Shown here one piece after another: positions 33,253 through 59,460 of a stretch of 64,000 bases of DNA (positions within the stretch are counted from its first letter, which is position 1; each line of letters starts with the position of its first letter). The notes under the pieces were generated by a model that made no database searches, was not told the DNA's origin, and saw only the letters and a list, made by a program, of their open reading frames with translations. The stretch covers positions 4,588,001 through 4,652,000 of the forward strand of contig NZ_CP067041.1 in NCBI RefSeq assembly GCF_016599855.1, given 5' to 3'. The stretch is from Bradyrhizobium diazoefficiens (GTDB lineage: Bacteria; Pseudomonadota; Alphaproteobacteria; Rhizobiales; Xanthobacteraceae). The position numbers and the translations under genes are program-made.

Positions 33253-33367
33253 GGACGAATCTTACGCCTTCCAGCGCCGCTTTCCTGCGGTTAATAACTT
33301 ATTGATATTGCTGTATATACTGCCATAGTAGCATCTGCGAACGCGCCAAGAACGCGGGGTGACTTTT

Positions 33368-34984
33368 ATGGCTGTTTTGTATGAACGTTGTACAAGGTTG
33401 ACCCTCCCGACGCCGACCCCGAAGTTCTTGCGCAAATCGGTCCGGTTGACTGAAGAACATCTCGCCGATGCGGTCGCGATGAGCGAAGATGAGCGACTGG
33501 CTCACACGGTCATGGAGCTCGGAGACCAAAAGGCCAAAGGCCTCACGATCCGCATCACCCCGCACAAGCCGATCTGGTACATCCGCAGAAAAGAGAAGAC
33601 ACTTCGCCTCAGGGATGTTCGCGAACTTTCGCTGAAGGACGCGCGCTATGTCGCGGAGCAAATCGCTCTTGGCGCCAAGCGTAACCGAAACTTGAACGAC
33701 CTGGCACACGTTCTCCTCGAGTACATGCCCCTCCCCAGCGAGGGCAGCATTAGGGATCGTGACGTTGAGGCCAAGTTGGACCATATGCTGGCTTCCCGGG
33801 ATAAGGCGAAGGCTATACCTGCGCCGCAGTTCTGGACCTGGAAGCAGTTGACCGACGAGTTCCTGAAGGAGAAGCAGCTGGACCTGAAAGCCTCTTATCG
33901 CAAGGCGTACGAGCGCTACCTGAGGCTCGAGGAATTCGGACCGATCAACAACAAGATGGTGCGCGAGATCGAGCTCCGCGATCTGGAAGAGGTCCGAAAT
34001 GCAATCCACATCAATCACGCCCCATCCGCCGTGAAGCGCGCGCTTCAGCAATCCAAAGAGATGTTGACATGGGCCTGGAAGAACCATGCGACCGTTTCCG
34101 GGTTGGACAAGGTGCAATACCAGTGGTGGGACCGATGGTCTTACCAATACAAGCCTAAGAAGCGGCCGCCCCGTAGACCCACCGTCGAGGAAATTGCCCG
34201 CACCCTTGTCATCGCCGAGCGCTATAGACATTTGGCCGATGGCGAAAACGACATCTATCCGGGAACGCTCGGCGCGCTCTGGGCCGTGGCTTTGACCGGG
34301 CAGCGAACCGGCGCGTTAACAAAACTTGGGACGGACCGGCTCTTCCCAACTGACAAGCAGTACCGCAAGCTCACGGGATGGAAGATCGCGAATTGGAAAA
34401 TGGAAGAAATGAAGGGAGGTCGAGACGGTGGCCGGCCCCATTCACTTCCAATTCCACCCGAAGCGCTCAAGATCATCTACCGGTACCACAAAAAAGCTGG
34501 CGGAGAATCCCCGTGGATGTTCCCTGCACGCTTCCCCGACAAACATGTCGGCAAGTCTTCGCTTGATCAATTGATCTACCGGCTCCAGGGGCAGGTCTAC
34601 GACCACACAGTGAGGCAGAAACCCCATCGCAAGGGAAAGCCCGGGCCAATGCCGCGTCCGTTGAAGGCTAGGCCAAACCTGTTCGAACAATTCGGCATCC
34701 GTCCGTGGACTCCGCACGACTGCCGGGACACGATCACGACGTTCCTGGAAGACCGCAGACTGGGTGGCGCTGCGAGCGCAATCCTCGGCCACAAACAGCC
34801 CAACTCGGACCCGAGCCGGGAGGAGCGCGAGAGACTCGCTCGGGTAACGGAGCAACACTACAATCATTCGCAACGCATTCGATTGAAAGCCGAAGGCATG
34901 GCTCTGTGGGTCAAAGCCCTGCTGAGTGCCTACAATCGGGAGCTGAGGCGCTTCCAGACAAGCTTGCAACGTGTCGCCGCGTAG
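33368..34984 (+). CDS. Tyrosine-type integrase of the island
   Basis: 538 residues from ATG at 33368 (a GTG at 33359 in frame is an alternative). Catalytic residues: Arg in TGQRTGALTKLG, a basic segment GRPHSLPIPP, HDCRDTITTFLED (HxxR type), GHKQP, and the nucleophile Tyr in TEQHYNHSQR. The N-terminal 100 residues resemble the arm-binding domain of phage integrases (LTIRITPHKPIWYIRRKEKT). Set beside the tRNA-Gly fragment, it should be the integrase that uses that site. Confidence 0.85.
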   Translation: MAVLYERCTRLTLPTPTPKFLRKSVRLTEEHLADAVAMSEDERLAHTVMELGDQKAKGLTIRITPHKPIWYIRRKEKTLRLRDVRELSLKDARYVAEQIALGAKRNRNLNDLAHVLLEYMPLPSEGSIRDRDVEAKLDHMLASRDKAKAIPAPQFWTWKQLTDEFLKEKQLDLKASYRKAYERYLRLEEFGPINNKMVREIELRDLEEVRNAIHINHAPSAVKRALQQSKEMLTWAWKNHATVSGLDKVQYQWWDRWSYQYKPKKRPPRRPTVEEIARTLVIAERYRHLADGENDIYPGTLGALWAVALTGQRTGALTKLGTDRLFPTDKQYRKLTGWKIANWKMEEMKGGRDGGRPHSLPIPPEALKIIYRYHKKAGGESPWMFPARFPDKHVGKSSLDQLIYRLQGQVYDHTVRQKPHRKGKPGPMPRPLKARPNLFEQFGIRPWTPHDCRDTITTFLEDRRLGGAASAILGHKQPNSDPSREERERLARVTEQHYNHSQRIRLKAEGMALWVKALLSAYNRELRRFQTSLQRVAA

Positions 34985-40758: not shown

Positions 40759-40884
40759 GACGGGCCAATCCATCACCGAACGTTTCGAACATGGCGGGCC
40801 ATGGCGGTCTGCCACGAAACTATTGTACCCCGCGATGGCCGCCGCGCCCGGGACGCTCATCCATTCGAGAAACTGGAGCGATCG

Positions 40885-42969
40885 ATGAACCTACATCTAC
40901 AGCATCCATGCGACCTGCTCGGTCGTGCGTACCTGGACATGTTGGCCACGGAAGCTGGCGCTGTGTCGCGGCCGCTTCTGCGCAGCGGCGACCCCGACGA
41001 CCCGATCGAGCGGCTGATCGACGAACTCGCGGCCAAACCGGCCTCGGACGCGCGGTCGTCGATCCGGGCCGATCTGGCGGCCGCTGCCATCCTTGTCGCG
41101 CGCGCCATCGAGCCGATCCAGGAGCTGACCCGGGACCTGCGGCGCGGTTCGCCGGTCGTATCGCTGGCGGTTCTGGGAGCTGAAACTGTTGCGCTAGTGC
41201 AGCGGGTCTTGGAAACCTGTGCGTTTGGAACAAGCGCTAGTGTGCTGGACGAGCGGACTTTCAACGACCGTCATACGCGTCCGGTCCTGCTGATCGCCAG
41301 AGACGGCACGGCAAACGATCACAAGGCCGAACGCGGCAACGACATCGTCGCCGACGCCCTGCACGCGCGCGTTCCTGTGTTCGGAGTAGCTCCCGACCCG
41401 CGCCGCCACCTGCCGCGCGATCTGCTTCGTGCGTCCGACCATCATCTCTGTCTGGCGGCGCTTGACGCTTCCGCCATCGCGCTCGTGATCGAGGCCGTGA
41501 CCGGACGTCCTCCCACCGCGCCCATTGACGAGCAACTCGTACGAGCCCTCGAGTTCTCGGACCTCACACTTGCGATCCGTGCCGACCGTGATCCGGACGA
41601 GTGCATCGAGCGGCTGAAGAGGACCATCGCCACCAAGTCCTTTTTCGACCACCGAGGCCCGAGCCTGGAGGAATTGTCTGGCTACGGCGCGGCGCGGCAA
41701 TGGGGCCTTAATCTGGCGGCCGACTTGCGCGAATATCGCGCCGGACGCCTCGCCTGGGAAAGCATCGAAAAAAGTCTGCTGCTGGTCGGTCCGCCCGGCG
41801 TTGGCAAAACGCAGTTCGCACGCGCGGTCGCAAAAAGTGCGAACGTACCGCTCGTGTCAACCTCTGTGGCTGATTGGAACTCAGCCCCCTATTTGTCAGG
41901 CACGCTCTCGGCACTCAAGGATTCTTTTTCACAGGCGCGCCGGCTCAGCCCCTGCGTGCTCCTGATCGATGAGCTTGACGGAATTTCGGATAGAGCAAAG
42001 CTCGGATCGGAGTACCGCGAATACTGGTTGCAGATTGTCAATTTGCTACTAGAGATGTTATCGGAGGAAAGGCCCGGTGTCGCGCTGATCTCGACCACCA
42101 ATCATCCCGACCAAATCGACCAAGCCGTGAAGCGCGCAGGCCGCTTCGATCAGACGATTGAAATTGAGCTCCCCGACGTCGAAGCCCTGGTCGAGATCTT
42201 CCGCTTTCACATCGGACCCGACTTGCTCATCGGGATCGATTTGACGCCCGCGACCCTGTTGGCGTTGGGCAAGACCGGGGCGGACGTCGAGGCCTGGGTC
42301 CGGCGTGCGAAGTCACGCGCGCGACGCGCCGCACGCGATCTAACGCTCGATGACTTGATGCTCGAGATCCGGTCGGGACGCGATGTCATGCCTGACACCA
42401 CGCGGCTCGTTTGTGCGGTTCACGAGGCTGGCCATTTCGTGGTGGGACATGCGCTTTCCGTGTTTGAAGCTAGGATGCTGGCAATCCTCGATCACGGCGG
42501 CACCACCGGCATCAAAATCTTGCGGCGCAACGCGGCGACCGAAGCCGGAATTGAGAACTACATCACCGCATTGCTGGCGGGGCGCGCCGCCGAGGAGATC
42601 GTTTTGGGGCCGACCGCCGTCACAGCCGGCAGTGGCATCGGCGAGGATTCCGATTTTGCGTGCGCAACACAAGCTGCGATCGACCTTGAGCTACGTTTCG
42701 GGTTCGGCGCACTCGGTGTGGTGCATTTTCCAAACAGCGTGACTGAGATTCTTCCGCACGATGTCGCCATGACCCGCTTGATCCGGCAGCGGCTCGATCG
42801 CTGCATGGCGCGGGCCCGCGACCTGATCACGGAGAATCGCAATACCGTGCAAGCCGTGGCGGATCGGCTCCGCACTACCGGATATCTCAATCGCGCGGCA
42901 ATCGATGAGCTTCTGACAGCCCATCCGATCCGAACGACCGTCGCCGCGAGCAGCAGTACCGAGCGCTAA
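40885..42969 (+). CDS. Soluble FtsH-like AAA+ metalloprotease
   Basis: 694 residues from ATG at 40885 (TGGAGCG upstream). Walker A GPPGVGKT at 302-309, Walker B CVLLIDELDG at 357-366, the second-region-of-homology Arg in KRAGRFDQTIEIELPD, then the M41 zinc motif HEAGH at 513-517 and a downstream SGIGEDSDFACATQAAI segment with the third metal ligand Asp. Unlike FtsH, no clear pair of transmembrane segments is seen; residues 130-210 instead look like an alpha/beta domain (VLLIARDGTANDHKAERGND). An ATP-driven soluble protease in a phage-like operon. Probably degrades a specific regulator or host protein; the target is unknown. Confidence 0.8.
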   Translation: MNLHLQHPCDLLGRAYLDMLATEAGAVSRPLLRSGDPDDPIERLIDELAAKPASDARSSIRADLAAAAILVARAIEPIQELTRDLRRGSPVVSLAVLGAETVALVQRVLETCAFGTSASVLDERTFNDRHTRPVLLIARDGTANDHKAERGNDIVADALHARVPVFGVAPDPRRHLPRDLLRASDHHLCLAALDASAIALVIEAVTGRPPTAPIDEQLVRALEFSDLTLAIRADRDPDECIERLKRTIATKSFFDHRGPSLEELSGYGAARQWGLNLAADLREYRAGRLAWESIEKSLLLVGPPGVGKTQFARAVAKSANVPLVSTSVADWNSAPYLSGTLSALKDSFSQARRLSPCVLLIDELDGISDRAKLGSEYREYWLQIVNLLLEMLSEERPGVALISTTNHPDQIDQAVKRAGRFDQTIEIELPDVEALVEIFRFHIGPDLLIGIDLTPATLLALGKTGADVEAWVRRAKSRARRAARDLTLDDLMLEIRSGRDVMPDTTRLVCAVHEAGHFVVGHALSVFEARMLAILDHGGTTGIKILRRNAATEAGIENYITALLAGRAAEEIVLGPTAVTAGSGIGEDSDFACATQAAIDLELRFGFGALGVVHFPNSVTEILPHDVAMTRLIRQRLDRCMARARDLITENRNTVQAVADRLRTTGYLNRAAIDELLTAHPIRTTVAASSSTER

Positions 42970-48466: not shown

Positions 48467-50060
48467 TATCCTTGACGAGGCCGGCTATTACACCGTCGAG
48501 GGCATGGCGGTGATGATGGCGCAGGCGCGCTCGCTCGGATTCAGCATCACCATCGGCACCCAGGATATTCCGTCGCTGATGCGCATCGTCGAGAAAGAGG
48601 CAAAGTCGATGATCGCCAACGCCACCACGTTCTTGTGGATGCGCGTCGCCGAAACCGAGGAGACCGGCGGGCTCGCGGTCAAGCAGGGCGGCGAAGCCAC
48701 CTTCGCCCAGGCCGCCGGCTACGCCGCCAAGTCCGGCGAGTTCTCGACCCCGTATCTGGACAACATGGAGGCGCGGTTCGAGAAGCAGAACCGGATCTCG
48801 GTGCGGGCGCTGCGCGCGCTCGAGCCGGGCGATGCCTATGTCACCTTCCGCGACACCGTCGTGAAGATGAAGACCTTTTTCGCCAATCCGGAAGGCGAGT
48901 ACGGCGCGACGCTCGACGAGCTCGAGCTGCAGGTCAACCATTTCCTGGCCTTCGCCAAGCCGACCAAGGAGGAGGTCAAGAAGACCGGCGTGCTGGTCGA
49001 GGTCGCCGAGCGGCTTGCGGATTCGCATTTTACCAAGATCGTCGAACAGCGCGCCAAGGACGAGCGTGCCGCGATCGTCAAGCTCGCCAACGACAAGAAG
49101 GACCCGACGTCCTTGCGCAACGAGATCTCGGCCGGCAGCGTGGCGTTCCTGCGGGCCGCCTATGGCTCCGGCAAGAAGGCGACGCCGACCGACCTGATCA
49201 CCGCCGGCGCCGCCTCGGTCGCCGCCATCCTACAGGCGATGGCCAAGCAAGGCGACAAGTTCGCCCGCGACGTTCGCGCCATGGAAGGGCTGCCGGACCA
49301 TCTCGCCCGCTCGGGCCGGGTCCGCGCGCCGTCCCAGATGCCGGGCCTGGTCGACCCGACGTCGCTCGCCCCTGTGGCCCCAGTGCGGCCGCTGCGCCCC
49401 ACCCCGCCGGCCTCCCCACTCGCGGATGCCACCCGCCCGGCTGAGCCCTCCCGCGCCGCGTTGCCACCGTCGCTGGAGGCCCTGCGCGCCAGGGCGCCGG
49501 TGGCGCCGCCACGCGACACCTTCATGGAGGAGGAGTTCGACGACGCCCCGCCCGGGCCGGATGACGATGACGCGCAGAACCAGACCGCGAGCCTCGCCGC
49601 GGCGCTGGACTCCCTCGGCTCGCCGGAGGCCCGGCGCGAGGCCGCCGCCTCACCGGCGCCGTCGCGCATGAAGGCGGTCGAGCACGGGGTCACCGTCGAC
49701 AACGTCGCCTACGAGATGGCCAAGAAGATGCAGAGCAACGAGACCACCCTGCACTTCCTGGCCGCACTGGATTTCGACGGCGAGCCGGGCGAAGAAGCGG
49801 TCGATGCCGCCCTCGACGAGGCCGCCACCGGCTCCGCCGAGGCGATTGCGCCCGAGACCAGGCCGACGGCGCCCGTCACCCCGGCCGATCTGGAGCGCGC
49901 CGACGTCGCCTCCGCGCGGGCCGCGCAATGGGTCGCGCGCGCCGAGGGACAGAAGCCGAAGCCGGCAGCAGCCGCTCCGGAGGAGTTCGAGAAGCACGTG
50001 GAGGCCGGCAACGTCGATGCGATGACGCAGGCGTTTCTGGCTGACCTTCTCGAAGGCTAA
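48447..50060 (+). pseudogene. C-terminal half of a DotL/TrbC-type T4SS coupling protein
   Basis: Protein-like sequence starts at ILDEAGYYTVEGMAVMMAQA (from about 48468) and RSLGFSITIGTQDIPSLMRI, the C-terminal NTPase motif region of IcmO/DotL/TrbC-like coupling ATPases (Walker B-like ILDEAG). No start codon in context: an in-frame stop is at 48444 and the N-terminal Walker A domain is missing. The last ~200 residues are an Ala/Pro-rich tail (PAPPSRAALPPSLEALRARA-like) ending at a TAA at 50058. The more GC-rich composition than its neighbours suggests a separate source. Confidence 0.7.
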
Positions 50061-51824: not shown

Positions 51825-51900
51825 ATGCCTGTAGCTGAATGGTTAGAGGCAGCCGCTCATAACGGTCTGGTTGCAGGTTCGAGTCCTGCCGGGCCCACCA
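51825..51900 (+). other. Degenerate tRNA-Met(CAU)-like gene, island attachment remnant
   Basis: The 3' half is perfect: anticodon loop CTCATAA, T arm GCAGGTTCGAGTCCTGC, acceptor CGGGCCC and CCA ending at 51900. The 5' half is off: acceptor starts ATGCCTG with two mismatches, the D arm is TAGCTGAATGGTTAGAGGC and the upper anticodon stem is mispaired. This is the 3' crossover copy of a tRNA used as an attachment site with a different sequence joined on the left. Possibly still transcribed but probably not a functional tRNA. Confidence 0.65.
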
Positions 51901-51930
51901 GCCTTTTGTTGTCTATGGAGCCACTTTGAG

Positions 51931-51988
51931 AACGACTCGATTTCCCTTTTGAAACGACTCGATTTCGTTTTTGAAACGACTCGATTTC
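51931..51988. repeat. Three 22-bp direct repeats
   Basis: AACGACTCGATTTC at 51931, 51953 and 51975, each followed by a T-rich spacer, period 22. Just after the tRNA-like sequence and ahead of the ABC-type operon. Could be att-arm sites, protein-binding repeats or a repeat-containing RNA. Confidence 0.65.
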
Positions 51989-52018
51989 CCATCTCACTGA
52001 CGTATCTAACGAATTTCG

Positions 52019-52060
52019 CCTCGGTTTTTTCGCCGATTTTTGAGCACGAAAAAACCGAGG
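52019..52060. other. Long perfect hairpin
   Basis: Arms CCTCGGTTTTTTCG (52019-52032) and CGAAAAAACCGAGG (52047-52060) with a 14-base loop. The T run sits inside the stem, not after it, so it is not a textbook intrinsic terminator. Position suits a regulator or terminator of a transcript running through the 22-bp repeats. Confidence 0.6.
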
Positions 52061-52216
52061 GGGGTCTTTTGCGCTTCGCAAGGACCTGTAGGTCGGCGTT
52101 CATCGCCGCCGCAAGGCCAGTTGCACGATCACCGCTGCGCTGCAATTCCCGAAAAGGCGGGGAATCAAGCGACGGACCGCCCGCGGCAGTTGAACTTCAC
52201 ACCCGTCGCTCGGATA

Positions 52217-52882
52217 GTGGCGCGACTAACCATCTCGACTGGCGGACAGGACGTGGAAACCGGCTTCCGATATCGCGACGCGCTACGGCTGCTCTTCATA
52301 CTGCAGATGGGGGCTCGCGCGCCCGATCCGTCCGAGGCCCCGCCCGGCGTGATCGGGATCTTCGAGGGTGAAAAGCGGCTGATGGCGATCGATTTCTGGG
52401 TGCGATACCCGGACTACTTGGCGGATCAATTGTTGAACTTGTACGAAAAGTCGAAGGATGCCGGGCTGCTTTCGGAGATCCAGATGATCTTCGATCGGGA
52501 CGAACCCGATGTCCGCACAATCAAAGTGCTTCGCTGGAGATACGGCGCTTTTGACCGGATCGAGGACGCGCTCGCCATCCTGTCAGCTCGAAATCTCGTC
52601 AAGCCGATGAAGAAGAGCATCCCGACAGGAATTCAACACGACTTCCTCATCTACGAACGGGCTGCCGGATTTCTGCGGGACGCAGTCCAAGAGCAGCCGA
52701 CTATCAAATGGTACGAAGATCGGACTCGCCTCGCACTGTCCGTCGCCGGCGACAAAAGCGGTTCCGCGCTGAAGGACATGCAATACGAAGTGCCAGAGTA
52801 TGATGGCACGCAATGGAGTGCGGAGATCCCCAGCATCAAGGATCGGGTGCTCCGGCGGCTCAAGGATTTGACGGGGGCATGA
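52217..52882 (+). CDS. ABC-3C/Lamassu-type middle component
   Basis: 221 residues from GTG at 52217 (MARLTISTGGQDVETGFRYR if GTG is read as Met); the frame is open further up but no better start is seen. YRDALRLLFILQMGARAPDP, then GIFEGEKRLMAIDFWVRYPD and DRIEDALAILSARNLVKPMK look like winged-helix-containing small subunits placed before SMC-like ATPases in three-component defence operons. Its TGA overlaps the ATG of the ATPase gene. Probable adaptor linking the ATPase to the effector; family placement is inferred from context and size. Confidence 0.6.
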   Translation: MARLTISTGGQDVETGFRYRDALRLLFILQMGARAPDPSEAPPGVIGIFEGEKRLMAIDFWVRYPDYLADQLLNLYEKSKDAGLLSEIQMIFDRDEPDVRTIKVLRWRYGAFDRIEDALAILSARNLVKPMKKSIPTGIQHDFLIYERAAGFLRDAVQEQPTIKWYEDRTRLALSVAGDKSGSALKDMQYEVPEYDGTQWSAEIPSIKDRVLRRLKDLTGA

Positions 52883-54873
52883 TGAATAAGGACATCGAGA
52901 TCCCGCAGACCACGGTCGCGGAATGGCGCAGTCTGATCGCAGATAAGTCAGGTTGCGATGAACAGACTATAGACGACGTCCTCGAGCGCCATGGGGTCGA
53001 GGTCAATTCGATCGTCCCGCGCCGAAAGACCATATTGCTCCGGTCGGCACGATTGAGCGGCGTGAAGTCAGGACTGAAGGACCAGCACCAAGCGGATCTG
53101 CCGGATTCTGCGTTCGATTACACCTGGAAGGATCTCGACCGAGGCCTTTGGATCATCACCTCAGACAAGAACTCCAAAGGTAAAAGCTCGGTTCTCAACG
53201 CCTTCAAAGCTGCCATAAAGGGCAAATTCCCAGGCTCGATGAAGCCCGACGTTTGGAATTGGCTGTCTACACTGCAGGTGGAGTTCTCCGTAGACGGCGT
53301 TCTTCATCGCGTCACTTCAAAGAAGGGCGACGGCAAAGGGGAAGACAACATCGCATTCTTGGCATCTCTCGAACGCCAGGAATCGGGGGAATGGCTCATC
53401 CTTTCGACGAAGCAAGATCCCGACTCATTCGAAGAGGTCATGTCGGACTTCTTCATGCAGGAGCTGGGATTCGAAAAATTTCGAGCCTTCCAGAAGAGGA
53501 CCGAAGGTTTCAAGCACCATGGTTGGCCGTCAATGGGATCCGCCCTGTTCCTCACCGGGGCCAGCGACGCCCTTTTCGGCGAAGAGACCGTTGACGGCTT
53601 GGCCATGCGGCTGCTGCAACTCTTTATCGGCTTGCCGTGGATTTCAACCTATACCGAACTGCAGGCATCGTTGAAGAAGGTGGAAGCCGACACGGCGCGC
53701 ATCGGCGAGGCGGCAAAAGCACCGAGGGCAAAGCTACTTACACGTATCGCACAGCTCGAGACCGAACGCACCTCTGCGATTGCGGACAAAAAGGCTCTTC
53801 CCGACCGCGATCTTGCGTTGATTGAGAAGAAGGCCGCCGACGAAGAGATAGCAGCGGCACTCGAGGAAAAGGTCCGGTGCGAACGAGAGCTAATAGAGCT
53901 TCGCGGTCAGATTTTGGAGGCGAAAAGCGCCTCTGCTGAAGCCAAAAATTTGCTCCAGCAGGTCAAAGACGAGGTGGGCGCCGGTCATCTGTTTAGAAGC
54001 CTGCGTCCGAGGAGCTGCCCTAGCTGCGATGCGGCCGTTCGGGTGAACGAGGCGGCTACTGAACAGCACCATTGTAGCCTCTGTGGACAGGAACCAGTCG
54101 TACCCGAAGATGACTCGGCGGAAAGGATCGCAGCTCTCAAGCGAGAGGTCGCAGGCGCCGCGGCGGCCCTGAGTTCGCTCGAGCAGATCCGCGCAACAAA
54201 CGAAAGCGCTTTGACGGCAGCAAAGGCGCGTCTGCACGCAGCCGAAGAAAGGCAGCAGAAGGCATCAGACATTCTTCGGGCGGACGACCGCGGTCATGAG
54301 GTGGCAACTCGACTGATCGGTCTCGATGCGAGAATCCAGGAATTGCAGGAGCAGTTGCCGGAAGAGCCAAAATTTGTCGCTTCTACCGACGCACGGGTAC
54401 TAAAGAGCGCGTTCGAGGTCACCAAGGAGTGCTTCGAGGGCATGCAGACGAGCATGCTGCGGCACTTTTCCGAACGGCTCTATAGCATCGCTGCCGCCCT
54501 CGGCGTCGAAAACCTGCAGAGCGTGGACGTGAAGCTCAACAAGATCGGCATTCGACAGGGTAACGCTGAGACGACTTTCACGAAATTGAACGAGGGTGAG
54601 AAGCTTCGGTTCCGAACTGCAGCGGCGTTAGCCGCCATCGAGACCGCAAAGTGGACGGGCGTCGGACGTCATCCTGGCTTCGTCGTTCTCGACTCCCCTG
54701 CCGCCCAGGAGATGTCTGAGGACGATTTCGGCTCGCTACTCGCGAACCTCACAAGCGTACTGGAGGCCAATCCGGATATGCAGATCATCGTTGGAGCGGT
54801 GATGCGACCGAATATCCAGGATGTCCCTTGCAGGGGAATGGAGTATGCCAAGGGCGACGACCACCTGTTCTAA
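52879..54873 (+). CDS. SMC/Rad50-like ATPase of a defence system
   Basis: 664 residues. Walker A SDKNSKGKSS at 95-104 (first Gly replaced by Ser), long central coiled coil (about 220-580) interrupted by a double CxxC zinc hinge: CPSC at 379-382 and CSLC at 399-402. The C-terminus has an ABC signature-like LNEGEKLRFRT and Walker B FVVLDSP near 600. This is the arrangement of LmuB-like (Lamassu) or ABC-3C ATPases that sense foreign DNA ends or structures. Starts in ATGA overlap with the middle component; 14 bases before the effector gene. Confidence 0.8.
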   Translation: MMNKDIEIPQTTVAEWRSLIADKSGCDEQTIDDVLERHGVEVNSIVPRRKTILLRSARLSGVKSGLKDQHQADLPDSAFDYTWKDLDRGLWIITSDKNSKGKSSVLNAFKAAIKGKFPGSMKPDVWNWLSTLQVEFSVDGVLHRVTSKKGDGKGEDNIAFLASLERQESGEWLILSTKQDPDSFEEVMSDFFMQELGFEKFRAFQKRTEGFKHHGWPSMGSALFLTGASDALFGEETVDGLAMRLLQLFIGLPWISTYTELQASLKKVEADTARIGEAAKAPRAKLLTRIAQLETERTSAIADKKALPDRDLALIEKKAADEEIAAALEEKVRCERELIELRGQILEAKSASAEAKNLLQQVKDEVGAGHLFRSLRPRSCPSCDAAVRVNEAATEQHHCSLCGQEPVVPEDDSAERIAALKREVAGAAAALSSLEQIRATNESALTAAKARLHAAEERQQKASDILRADDRGHEVATRLIGLDARIQELQEQLPEEPKFVASTDARVLKSAFEVTKECFEGMQTSMLRHFSERLYSIAAALGVENLQSVDVKLNKIGIRQGNAETTFTKLNEGEKLRFRTAAALAAIETAKWTGVGRHPGFVVLDSPAAQEMSEDDFGSLLANLTSVLEANPDMQIIVGAVMRPNIQDVPCRGMEYAKGDDHLF

Positions 54874-54887
54874 CTGGAGAGACGCGC

Positions 54888-56834
54888 GTGAGTACGCCGA
54901 ACACCCGCGCGTTGGTTGACGCTCTCCGGATCGGAAAGTCTCCGGTCGTCTCCGGAGACGAAGCAATTGACTGGAAATACGTCGTCGACGAGCTTGGAGA
55001 CGGTCCACTAGCCGCTGATCTTTTTCAGTGCATTTGCGCTCTTCCCATGCCGGGCGCGGCCTCAAAGGCGGCAGAGATTCTAATTGATAGTCTCCATGAT
55101 CCCGGCGCCACGCAAGAGATCGTCGCCTTAGTCTGCGGCGGCTTGGCCATTCCAGAAGCCGTCGCCGAGACCACGTTTTCAACGTTTCGCCGTTTAGCCT
55201 TCACGACCCAGAAGCACTACGGAACCCGGGCCTCGGCACTTAAGGGGGCGCTCTACTTAGCGCAGGGACATGCCGCCCGGGTCCATTGGCTGCAGGGAGA
55301 CTTGCTTGCCGTCTCCCTCGCCGATGATCCGCACTTCTTGCGCCATGCGGCAGCGGTGGCCGGCGTGGTGGCTTCTCAACGTCCGGATCAGGCGTTCGTC
55401 GACCTGCTGCAGACGTTCTACTCAGTGCACGAGGCCGCCGATGAGGCGGCGTTCGGGCTAGGGCTGGTGCTCCTCGCGCAGGCTCTTGGATCACGGGAGC
55501 GAAGCGAGGCTCTTGCACTGTTCCAGGACAGCCGACATTGGTTCCGAAACGCCTCGATCAATAGCGAGGATCGCGCAGATGCCGGCCTGTTCTTCGCGAC
55601 AGTCGGGGTCCTGGTGGATTTTGCGAACGGCACCGCCATTGCCGAAGTGCAAGACGGACTCAAAGCGGTCGAACGGCAACTGATCGACTACCTGTCCATC
55701 CACCTGGTGGAGGATCATCGGCCGCCCGACCAATCGTGGATGGGTCTTCGCACAACAGAAGCGGCGCATTGGGCGGCGCTTGCATTCAAGCTGACGGAAC
55801 TGGCAGGAAGTCTGGCTCGCGACGCCTGGCTCGAAGGCATCCGTGTGATCGAAGAGCAGCTTTTCCATATCTTGTCGGCGAGCAGGACAATTTTTCGACG
55901 GGCGACTGATGGAGGCATCGAGGCGGTAACCGGTCCCACGATCCAAACGGCTTTCATCAAGGAAAAAGCCAAGCTGGCTATGCTTGACGAATGGCTGGCC
56001 AGCAAGGCGCGGTCGCCATGGCACGAACAAGCTAAGGGCTTCCGCAGCCAAGTGCAGATGCAGCTTGAGGGCGCCATAAAGCGGCAGGCTTTTGACGCGG
56101 CGGGTGCGCCCTCCACACTCGCCGCGAGCGCAACATTGGAGGGACCTTCAGCCACCGAGAGGCTGGAATTACATGAAGCCATCGCTGGCGTGGAGCGCGA
56201 ATTCAGCCTCCATGATACGGATCCTATCATCGAAGAACTTTTGCATTCGATGATAGCGAAGCTTTCGAAGAACGAAGATTTCCACGCGCAACGACCTGCG
56301 AAGAATCTGTTCATACAAATTCTGCTCATCACGTTGAAATTTGTGGCCAAATGCGACAACGCGCAATCCGGCGAGGCGAAGTATCTCTTCACCAAACCAA
56401 CCGACAAGCCGCTCGAGGCTGCTATCGAGACGGATTACATGACCGCTATCCGTCTTTCGAATCTGAGCAGGCTGTGCACCCGCCAGCCTCAGGAAGTCGG
56501 CGGCGGGCGCGCTGACATACAATTCGCCTATAAGGGCTACACTCTGGTCACCGAATGCAAGCGCAGCTTCGACGACCTAACGCATGCGCAGGCACTCGTT
56601 CAATTCGGGGGACAATTGGTGGCGTATCAGGTTTCGAGCGTCACATTCTCTGCGCTCCTGATCCTTGATCTCTTTCCCAGAGGCGGATCGATGCAGCAGT
56701 TCAGGGATCGAGTGAGCGTTGAGGAAGCCGCCCCCTTCGGCAAGCTTCACTCATTCGCTGTTTTCAGAGTCCAAGGTCATCGCAGGTCGCCATCAGACCT
56801 CAAGCTAAAGGACACGATGATAGTGCCATCATAG
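54888..56834 (+). CDS. Helical protein with C-terminal PD-(D/E)XK nuclease domain
   Basis: 648 residues from GTG at 54888 with CTGGAGAG upstream. Residues 1-480 are helical and unrecognised; residues 535-565 read GGGRADIQFAYKGYTLVTEC followed by KRSF, where Asp543, Glu556 and Lys558 form the PD-(D/E)XK nuclease signature (D...ExK), and QFGGQLVAYQ resembles the following helix with the conserved Q/Y. As the third gene of the operon it is the likely nuclease effector, but the nuclease sits at the C-terminus, whereas in Lamassu LmuA it is N-terminal. This layout may be new or rare. Confidence 0.75.
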   Translation: MSTPNTRALVDALRIGKSPVVSGDEAIDWKYVVDELGDGPLAADLFQCICALPMPGAASKAAEILIDSLHDPGATQEIVALVCGGLAIPEAVAETTFSTFRRLAFTTQKHYGTRASALKGALYLAQGHAARVHWLQGDLLAVSLADDPHFLRHAAAVAGVVASQRPDQAFVDLLQTFYSVHEAADEAAFGLGLVLLAQALGSRERSEALALFQDSRHWFRNASINSEDRADAGLFFATVGVLVDFANGTAIAEVQDGLKAVERQLIDYLSIHLVEDHRPPDQSWMGLRTTEAAHWAALAFKLTELAGSLARDAWLEGIRVIEEQLFHILSASRTIFRRATDGGIEAVTGPTIQTAFIKEKAKLAMLDEWLASKARSPWHEQAKGFRSQVQMQLEGAIKRQAFDAAGAPSTLAASATLEGPSATERLELHEAIAGVEREFSLHDTDPIIEELLHSMIAKLSKNEDFHAQRPAKNLFIQILLITLKFVAKCDNAQSGEAKYLFTKPTDKPLEAAIETDYMTAIRLSNLSRLCTRQPQEVGGGRADIQFAYKGYTLVTECKRSFDDLTHAQALVQFGGQLVAYQVSSVTFSALLILDLFPRGGSMQQFRDRVSVEEAAPFGKLHSFAVFRVQGHRRSPSDLKLKDTMIVPS

Positions 56835-56913
56835 CTCCCTGCGGCGACCGCTAGGCACGCTGATCCTATTCTGACCCTGAGGCAACGGCTCTGGCCTAGA
56901 TCGAGAGACGAAC

Positions 56914-57207
56914 ATGGGCTACCAGGTCCTGATCGATGACAACTTCCACTACCAGGACGAATCCGAGCGCGTGAAGCACGGCGTCTTCGCGACCTCCGAG
57001 GAGGCGGTCGCCGCCTGCCGATCAATCGTGGACGGGTACCTGACCGACGCCTTCAAGCCTGGCATGACGGCCGAGGCACTGTTCGAGAGCTACACGTTGT
57101 TCGGCGAGGACCCCTTCGTCGCTGCGGACGGGACTGAGGAAGCCCCTGTGAAGTTTTCGGCTTGGGACTACGCTCGCCAGCGCTGCTCAGAAATCGCTGC
57201 TGGCTGA
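56914..57207 (+). CDS. Small hypothetical protein
   Basis: 97 residues, MGYQVLIDDNFHYQDESERV, then KHGVFATSEEAVAACRSIVD. The first half is a beta-alpha pattern; common-looking Bradyrhizobium type with unknown role. GAGAG about 8 bases upstream of the ATG. Between the nuclease operon and the second nuclease gene. Confidence 0.55.
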   Translation: MGYQVLIDDNFHYQDESERVKHGVFATSEEAVAACRSIVDGYLTDAFKPGMTAEALFESYTLFGEDPFVAADGTEEAPVKFSAWDYARQRCSEIAAG

Positions 57208-57757: not shown

Positions 57758-59460
57758 ATGGGTTACGTCAATGCGCGCGACGTCAGCTCGTTCGCCGACA
57801 TAGCCCACGTCTACGGGCTGCCATCCACCGAAGGGTATGCCGCAAATCTGCTGGCCTCTCTCCCTCTCCAGGAGACCGTGATCCTCTGCGCGCGGCTCAA
57901 CGCTATCGTCTCCGGCATCGGGATCGCATCCATGGAGCGTCGCAACCGGGCGGCGATGTCGCTCATCGCGTTGCCGAAGGAGGAACAAAGGATTCTGAGC
58001 TTCACGGGACCACGCGGCGGATACCGAACGCATGCGGTCTTCTTCCGGGGGCAGCTTCTGCACCTGATGCGTCTCGCCGTCAGGCACTGCTCTCCGGAAT
58101 CCCGCCCCGGTTTCTACGAAGCCCCCAAGAATCGGGTGCAGTTTCTCAAGGTGGCGCTCGTCGCGAGCGCGCTGTGGACCGAGCGCACGATGGCGTCCCG
58201 CAACTTGGCGCAACTGACCGAGGAGACCGTCGAAGATCACGTCGGCTATCTGCGGAAAATCATCGAGGAGACCAATCCGGCGCCGAACGCGATCAACACG
58301 ATCGGACGCGGATGGCTGCTGTTCGCCGAGCATTTCCCGAAGCATTACCCGGCGTTCGAGGACGAATTCCGAGAGACGACCAGGATGACGTTCGACCAAT
58401 ACTCGACCTGTGTCTCCGGCCTCATGACCTACATCGTGGTCGGAAACGAACTCGAGGGTCGGGTCTTCAAGATCAACGCGGTCGGGGCCGCGACCACGTA
58501 CAGAGGCGTGTTTCCGGAATATCTCGCCCTGGATAGCCAGACGCCGGAGCAGTTCGCGCACGCCAGCCAGGGGAGCCAGGCCGAGTTCGAAAAAGCGATG
58601 TGGGAAAGGCCGATCATTCTCTTTCCCGACGGGTCCTCGGTCATCATCGACCCCGTCTTCTTTTCCGCGAAGCTCTCGGTCGGGCCTCTGTTCTTCCTGC
58701 TGCGCGATCACCCGGAGCGCGGAAGGGCGGTCTTCCACGCGTTCGGCCTGGCGTTCGAGGACTATGCGAACGCCATCGTCCGCCGCATGTTCGGCAACGC
58801 CAGGCTCAATCTCAAGAAGGCCAACGGCAAAAAGACGGACTTCGAGGTCGATGCCGTTGCGGGCGAGGGGCCGCCACCCTCGTGTTCGAGGCCAAAGCCA
58901 AGTTTCTCAAGGAGGAGCTCGTCTCCGGCAACGAGTACGCCGACTTCGTCGGCCATCTGCGAGAGAAGTACATCAGCAAGGGAAACGCCGTCTGGCAGCT
59001 CGCGAAGAGCACCAGCGCGATCTCGAAGCGCGGTTGGCCGGAGCTTCCGGACGAATTCGCCACCCCCGCCGAGATCTATCCGATCGTGGTGGCCCACGAC
59101 CTGCGCCTGGATAGCCCCGGCACCGGGGTGTTGTTCCGCAAGGAGATGAGAAAGCTGCTGGACGGCGAGGTCGGCGAGAACATTCGGCCGCTGATCGTCA
59201 TGACCATCCAGGACCTCGAAAATCTGGAAGGCGGCGTGGCGGCCGGCGCCATTTCGCTTGCACGGTTGTTGTCCGACTATGTGAAGGAAATCCGGGACGT
59301 GGACCCACTGTGTTCGCTTCACAATTTCATCGCGCACTCGCAATACGCGAGCCGGATGAAGCCGAGCCCAGTCGTATTGGCGAAGTCGCTCGAAACGGTG
59401 GATCGAGCCAAGGCAGTTCTGTTTCCGAAAGAAGGCGCGGGATCCGGGGCGCCGTCGTGA
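57758..59460 (+). pseudogene. PD-(D/E)XK-like protein with a -1 frameshift in the catalytic motif
   Basis: Frame 1 from ATG at 57758 (MGYVNARDVSSFADIAHVYG) runs 370 residues to KKTDFEVDAVAGEG; the sequence then continues one frame back as AATLVFEAKAKFLKEELVSG to a stop at 59460. Joined, the two pieces give D-x(n)-ExK (FEVDAV ... VFEAK), a PD-(D/E)XK nuclease motif, in a protein of about 567 residues. The break is at the G run GAGGGG (58866-58871): slipping back one base on GGG restores the frame exactly. It can be a sequencing error, a real mutation, a phase-variable switch or programmed frameshifting. N-terminal 350 residues are unrecognised. Confidence 0.6.

Follow-up and report, generated by a model that had tools for sequence, protein, structure and literature searches.

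A Lamassu operon of Bradyrhizobium diazoefficiens with a predicted nuclease domain at the C-terminus of its LmuA effector

The closest described relatives of the locus presented here are the Lamassu systems. Lamassu type II, or DdmABC, has three components, namely a Cap4 effector (LmuA), an SMC/Rad50-like LmuB and a small middle protein, an arrangement that our locus resembles; phage protection was reported for one type II system in the excerpted text of PMC8565338. In the excerpts of PMC10586767, a zinc hook is described in LmuB, an abortive action is proposed, the N-terminal domain of LmuA is the likely effector and its C-terminal part is possibly a docking station. Published descriptions put the enzyme at the N-terminus of LmuA and the small gene between the other two (excerpts of PMC10586767 and PMC12409362), whereas our locus has the order C-B-A and a putative C-terminal enzyme. 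According to the excerpted PMC12409362, LmuA is freed and forms a homotetramer, which activates its nuclease. The ABC-3C systems, which resemble our locus in joining an ABC ATPase, a small middle component and an effector, are listed inside the Lamassu superfamily in an excerpt of PMC10586767. The activation models for Lamassu rest on LmuA with an N-terminal enzyme; a clade whose LmuA has its predicted enzyme at the opposite end, and which at every site examined has LmuB and LmuC of that same kind as partners, tests which features of the mechanism hold in general.

The window, that is, the whole stretch of 64,000 nucleotides analysed here, from whose first letter all positions are counted, carries one three-gene operon on the + strand (52217-52882, 52879-54873 and 54888-56834) in the order lmuC, lmuB, lmuA. 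The lmuC/lmuB junction is an ATGA overlap at 52879-52882, and a 14-base gap (54874-54887) separates lmuB from lmuA. A sequence-only reading of the window had placed these genes and junctions, the double CxxC of the ATPase, and D543, E556 and K558 of the third protein exactly where we found them. The start of lmuC is the GTG at 52217 or perhaps the in-frame GTG at 52253, after which conservation among homologues begins. The features are as follows; alignments of 22 rows comprise the window protein and 21 family members.

51924-51989, + strand: array of three direct repeats of 22 bases, with a counterpart upstream of lmuC in the Bradyrhizobium forestalis locus (L009)
52217-52882, + strand: lmuC, small middle subunit, 221 aa (PADLOC LmuC PDLC03872, E 3e-73 over residues 12-219; 21-row alignment)
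52879-54873, + strand: lmuB, SMC/Rad50-like ATPase, 664 aa (PADLOC LmuB PDLC03864, E 1.3e-158 over residues 11-664)
53170-53190, + strand: Walker A of LmuB, residues 98-104 (N98, G101 and K102 invariant in 22/22 rows)
54016-54084, + strand: double CxxC of LmuB (C380-C402), zinc-hook-like apex (C383, C399 and C402 invariant in 22/22 rows, C380 nearly so)
54679-54711, + strand: Walker B of LmuB, residues 601-611 (D605, S606 and E611 invariant in 22/22 rows)
54888-56834, + strand: lmuA, effector, 648 aa (PADLOC LmuA PDLC03853, E 9.5e-124 over residues 33-639; without a Pfam match)
56370-56807, + strand: PD-(D/E)XK-like C-terminal domain predicted in LmuA, residues 495-640 (hhalign to PDDEXK_9)
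56514-56561, + strand: D543 codon to K558 codon of lmuA, E556 included (invariant in 22/22 rows)

All three proteins match PADLOC Lamassu models over nearly their whole length, and the operon has an SMC/Rad50-like LmuB with Walker motifs, an LmuA beside it and a small LmuC. The window trio is of the same family as the PADLOC set PDLC03853/PDLC03864/PDLC03872, with no difference in sequence; the three proteins of the Streptomyces plasmid pFRL5 also match this set nearly whole-length. LmuB matches further PADLOC LmuB models as well (PDLC00254, E 1.6e-5; PDLC03859, E 4.7e-18; PDLC03863, E 1.6e-18). We infer that PDLC00254 represents the originally described LmuB because its number is low and a Cap4 LmuA adjoins its matches, and by these profile matches the window LmuB is related to that protein. 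The operon is a variant architecture within the known Lamassu class, ordinary in its class and unusual in its layout. The assignment to a Lamassu/ABC-3C class had been made from sequence alone and is borne out by the PADLOC matches; the accompanying claim that the system is undescribed is not, because a PADLOC model exists for each of its proteins and the system is thus already catalogued.

The libraries are less informative about what LmuA and LmuC do. Neither protein has a match in Pfam, NCBIfam or PHROGs, none of 20 LmuA family members matches Pfam at E 0.1, and the effector activity of this LmuA is named by none of Pfam, NCBIfam, PHROGs and PADLOC. PADLOC gives no domain description for PDLC03853, whereas it labels the Cap4-type LmuA models 'DUF4297 domain'; the window LmuA matches none of the latter, PDLC03853 being its sole PADLOC LmuA match up to E 1. 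A housekeeping nuclease was considered for LmuA and set aside, since nothing fitting was found in Pfam, NCBIfam, PHROGs or solved structures; a housekeeping-family profile match for the third protein, which the sequence-only reading had chosen as one of its refutations, did not appear. The small protein had been called wHTH-like, a description we did not confirm: neither LmuC nor any of 21 family members has a Pfam helix-turn-helix match. Across the 21 rows, Pfam gave nothing credible for LmuC, two members having stray matches (E 0.011 and 0.058), and a sequence comparison with solved structures likewise gave nothing credible. Pfam contains models of the ABC-3C middle component, and the lack of a credible Pfam match to LmuC may be a difference between the operon and ABC-3C. 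By the same kind of comparison with solved structures, LmuB has only weak matches to Rad50 (E 0.005), Wadjet JetA and coiled-coil proteins, and a weak match to a solved Lamassu LmuB (9ux7, E 0.097).

The C-terminus of LmuA probably carries a PD-(D/E)XK-like predicted nuclease domain. Eight residues (E510, G540, R541, D543, E556, K558, Q576 and Y580) are invariant in 22/22 rows and D516 is kept in 21/22, at an identity to the window protein of 19-33% for most members (93% for B. forestalis); invariance of D543, E556 and K558 in every row is more than chance. The residues follow one another as in PD-(D/E)XK nucleases, E ... GRxD ... ExK ... QxxxY, and the D ... E-x-K, the helix glutamate and the Q-x3-Y of this superfamily are present in LmuA throughout the 22 rows. 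In 16 further LmuA rows, nine new loci keep all eight residues and five rows repeat counted loci or look identical (L016, L017, L045, L048, L051), the last three by the length of their contigs or by matching scores; the two exceptions are disrupted copies, L012 with K at position 510 and L031 lacking the region. All eight are also kept at each of the five opened plasmid loci that were found through LmuB.

Profile comparison by hhalign adds a distant similarity. Residues 495-640 align to PDDEXK_9 (PF08011) with a probability of 75 and P 2.5e-5, a score reached by 0/60 column shuffles, PDDEXK_9 being the fourth family tried, picked for the similarity of its motif, and represented by 8 rows, from 10 matches, that closely resemble one another. 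In this alignment GRxD and ExK are in register with LmuA 540-558, a likeness between the two families, and residues 495-640 score 33 whereas five other LmuA segments score 7-10. Matches to Mrr (P 0.005) and Shedu (P 0.009) are weak, each with 0/60 shuffles reaching the score, and PDDEXK_1 (P 0.055, reached by 1/60 shuffles) is unseparated from controls: LmuA segment 350-494 scores 19.9 against it and the domain only 18.1. The second hhalign run used 37 LmuA rows, a set from which L012, L016, L017 and L031 had been removed and in which some duplicate loci remained, against 8/10 PDDEXK_9, 11/28 Mrr, 3/3 Shedu and 14 PDDEXK_1 matches; the first, on a smaller set of rows, gave borderline values (Shedu P 0.006, Mrr 0.012, PDDEXK_1 0.11, two other LmuA segments 0.03-0.54). 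With the Pfam PDDEXK_9 model itself, no LmuA member reaches even E 0.1. The literature search found no activity assay of this LmuA clade, and an earlier description of a nuclease at this C-terminus may exist.

The sequence-only reading had put the nuclease at the C-terminus rather than the N-terminus, which the invariant residues and the PDDEXK_9 similarity make probable. With its putative enzyme at residues 510-580 of 648, this clade appears to reverse the published polarity of LmuA; an N-terminal effector is a published generalisation and no strict criterion, and PADLOC files this LmuA as Lamassu anyway. Two type I loci, L111 and L112, follow the published arrangement, an N-terminal enzyme and lmuA as the leading gene: in the LmuA of L111 the Pfam Cap4_nuclease domain spans residues 17-219 of 360 and in that of L112 residues 24-238 of 383, and both proteins match PADLOC LmuA models other than PDLC03853. 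They resemble the window operon in having a nuclease effector, predicted in the window, and an LmuB with CxxC and a Walker B, which reads IDTPNQ or IDSPNQ in these two loci, and they differ from it in the order LmuA then LmuB and in having one CxxC only.

LmuB has two cysteine pairs, C380-x2-C383 and C399-x2-C402. Where an active ABC ATPase has D-E in Walker B, LmuB has D605-S606 in 22/22 rows, and this serine agrees with a loss of the glutamate. A glutamate-to-glutamine change in Walker B is general in LmuB according to excerpts of PMC10586767, where low ATP turnover is proposed; type II and the window are thus alike in having the glutamate replaced, by Q in the former and S in the latter. 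Five extra plasmid LmuBs have both Cys pairs, and a pattern search for their Walker B gave D-S-P in two, D-A-P in one and none clear in two; the D-S pair is thus not shared by the whole clade.

The three genes are inherited together. A scan of genome contigs with LmuA yielded 25 loci; LmuB adjoins LmuA in 21 of them, always in the order B then A, and LmuC precedes in 20 of these 21 (it was not found in L020). Of the remaining four, L027 and L030 run into contig ends, and L012 and L031 are disrupted. At L012 (2925-6155) the disrupted LmuA continues a P-type-ATPase-like frame, and beyond it lies a transposase-like frame, both as judged by eye; at L031 (6545-7987) LmuA is cut short before the nuclease domain and no LmuB was found. 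Hosts include Alphaproteobacteria, Planctomycetota and Actinomycetota. In the LmuA and LmuB trees (20 rows) the groups are the same and without conflict, one deep fork being unresolved in the LmuA tree. Starting from LmuB, strong matches occur in 2/98 genomes of the genus, the window's own counted (4/98 at E 1e-3), and in 7/398 of the phylum at E 1e-10, the window's genome included; this LmuA stands next door in 8/8 distinct genomes with a strong LmuB, again counting the window's own. One weak genus match (G346, E 4e-8) has no LmuA or LmuC of this clade within 11 kb, and another is G308 (E 3e-4). With the LmuA model, 7/297 genomes of the order match, four strongly (window's own counted) and three at E 4e-4 to 7e-4; in one of these three, L006, the frame appears unlike a full LmuA. 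The same model, PDLC03853, also matched 1/14 control genomes, that of Methanosarcina acetivorans. The operon is therefore sporadic in distribution, and no effector swapping was seen in the opened loci (eight strong genomes and five LmuB-found plasmids). Values of dN/dS against B. forestalis, whose LmuA is 93% identical to that of the window, are 0.22 for LmuC, 0.16 for LmuB and 0.22 for LmuA, which places all three genes under purifying selection.

The operon is also mobile. Methylopila and Altericroceibacterium, which belong to different families, have nearly identical operons, indicating that it moves as a unit. Plasmid records were matched by LmuA in 13 cases (E 1e-5) and by LmuB in 32 (E 1e-8); five opened LmuB-found plasmids outside the 13 also carry this LmuA, and two of the opened plasmids with the operon are conjugative and one is mobilizable. 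In most of nine opened plasmid records the proteins are called 'hypothetical', one LmuB being labelled 'large ATP-binding protein' and another lacking annotation, and our reading of the clade proposes a function for them. Phage records gave no match; among viral contigs, none was matched with a single protein and one (L051) with an alignment. This IMG/VR contig apparently carries the Paracoccus sanguinis operon (equal lengths and scores), possibly as prophage cargo.

Of 19 Streptomyces plasmids, 15 have LmuB no more than 30 kb from an end of the record, against 4.6 expected under uniform placement, and none of 200,000 simulations was as high; the 19 are the 20 listed of 22 matched plasmids less one near-duplicate, with two S. 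goshikiensis records, probably the same sequence, both kept. Four of the 19 were opened and all carry this LmuA. Five opened Streptomyces records are linear, and on pFRL3, outside the 19-plasmid table, the distance to an end is about 69 kb. Linear replicons generally have accessory arms. An end bias is reported for Lamassu as a whole in the excerpted PMC10482375, so the placement in Streptomyces is a lead only.

We propose, as the likely reading of these data, a three-gene Lamassu defence system with LmuB-LmuC as sensor and LmuA as effector with a C-terminal PD-(D/E)XK nuclease. LmuB, Rad50-like with a Cys4 apex and a Walker B without the catalytic glutamate, would sense abnormal DNA together with LmuC, such as ends, hairpins, or replicating plasmid or phage DNA, and the two would keep LmuA inactive until then. 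Upon sensing, LmuA would be released and self-assemble through its long N-terminal region, and its nuclease (D543, E556, K558) would degrade DNA, so that the infection ends or the plasmid is lost, probably along with the cell. Sensing, release, oligomerisation and killing are inferred from other Lamassu as described in excerpts of PMC10586767, PMC12409362 and PMC12904381. A more specific proposal, which we hold tentatively and would sooner doubt than accept, is that the clade forms a separate subtype of inverted polarity, with the order C-B-A, N-terminal docking or oligomerisation, a C-terminal PDDEXK_9-like nuclease, a Cys4 apex, an unswapped effector and a sensor tuned to DNA ends or palindromes; such tuning to ends or palindromic termini, if true, would explain the placement near the ends of linear Streptomyces plasmids.

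Other readings were weighed against the three-gene defence system. It is unlikely, in our view, that the system is Lamassu but with a second effector or target-binding activity in the N-terminal 490 residues of LmuA, beside the C-terminal nuclease. That region is long, unnamed by any library searched, and has positions invariant in 22/22 rows (L118, G159, L174, F219, R229, A232, F245, L298, W314, P350 and L366); however, these are mostly glycine, hydrophobic or aromatic, with no polar cluster like the C-terminal one. The weak LmuB profile match to the Rad50 structure, with coiled-coil proteins scoring similarly, and the excess of LmuB near Streptomyces record ends would suit an SbcCD/Rad50-like complex for repair of DNA ends or replication forks, with LmuA as the processing nuclease, perhaps acting at linear replicon ends in Streptomyces. 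Yet LmuB is sporadic in genus and phylum, has spread horizontally and lacks the Walker B glutamate, and we think this reading quite unlikely; an end bias is moreover reported for Lamassu as a whole, and replicon arms are generally accessory. As for the C-terminal domain itself, the modest profile scores of a fold and activity that are both predicted would allow a domain of the PD-(D/E)XK fold that binds DNA or has a regulatory role and does not cut, but the invariance of all eight motif positions, acids and lysine included, despite 19-33% identity for most members makes this highly improbable.

The sequence around the operon provides several further observations. At E 1e-10, the sole stretch of the window matching L009, which extends some 4 kb ahead of the operon and 6.6 kb past it, is 51827-57207 (93% identical), a block that starts at a tRNA-Met gene and ends after a 97-codon ORF, as expected of a mobile block. 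The tRNA-Met gene (51825-51900) differs from that of L009 in its 5' part and is identical in its 3' part, a pattern that suggests an integration site whose 3' end has been rebuilt. Between this gene and lmuC, the core AACGACTCGATTTC of the three 22-base repeats has no exact copy elsewhere in the genome, and L009 has a comparable array in the corresponding position; the repeats may be control or attachment sites. At 52019-52060, upstream of lmuC, the perfectly matched 14-base arms of an inverted repeat enclose a loop of 14 bases; this feature, read by eye, also has a similar counterpart in L009. Downstream, a single interrupted gene seems to account for two overlapping frames, 57758-59149 and 58600-59460; neither matches PADLOC, and the former has no Pfam match. 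Other genes of the island encode weak phage-integrase domains (33359-34984), an AAA and M41 peptidase protein (40801-42969) and a protein with a weak TraG/TraD-like match (48504-50060).
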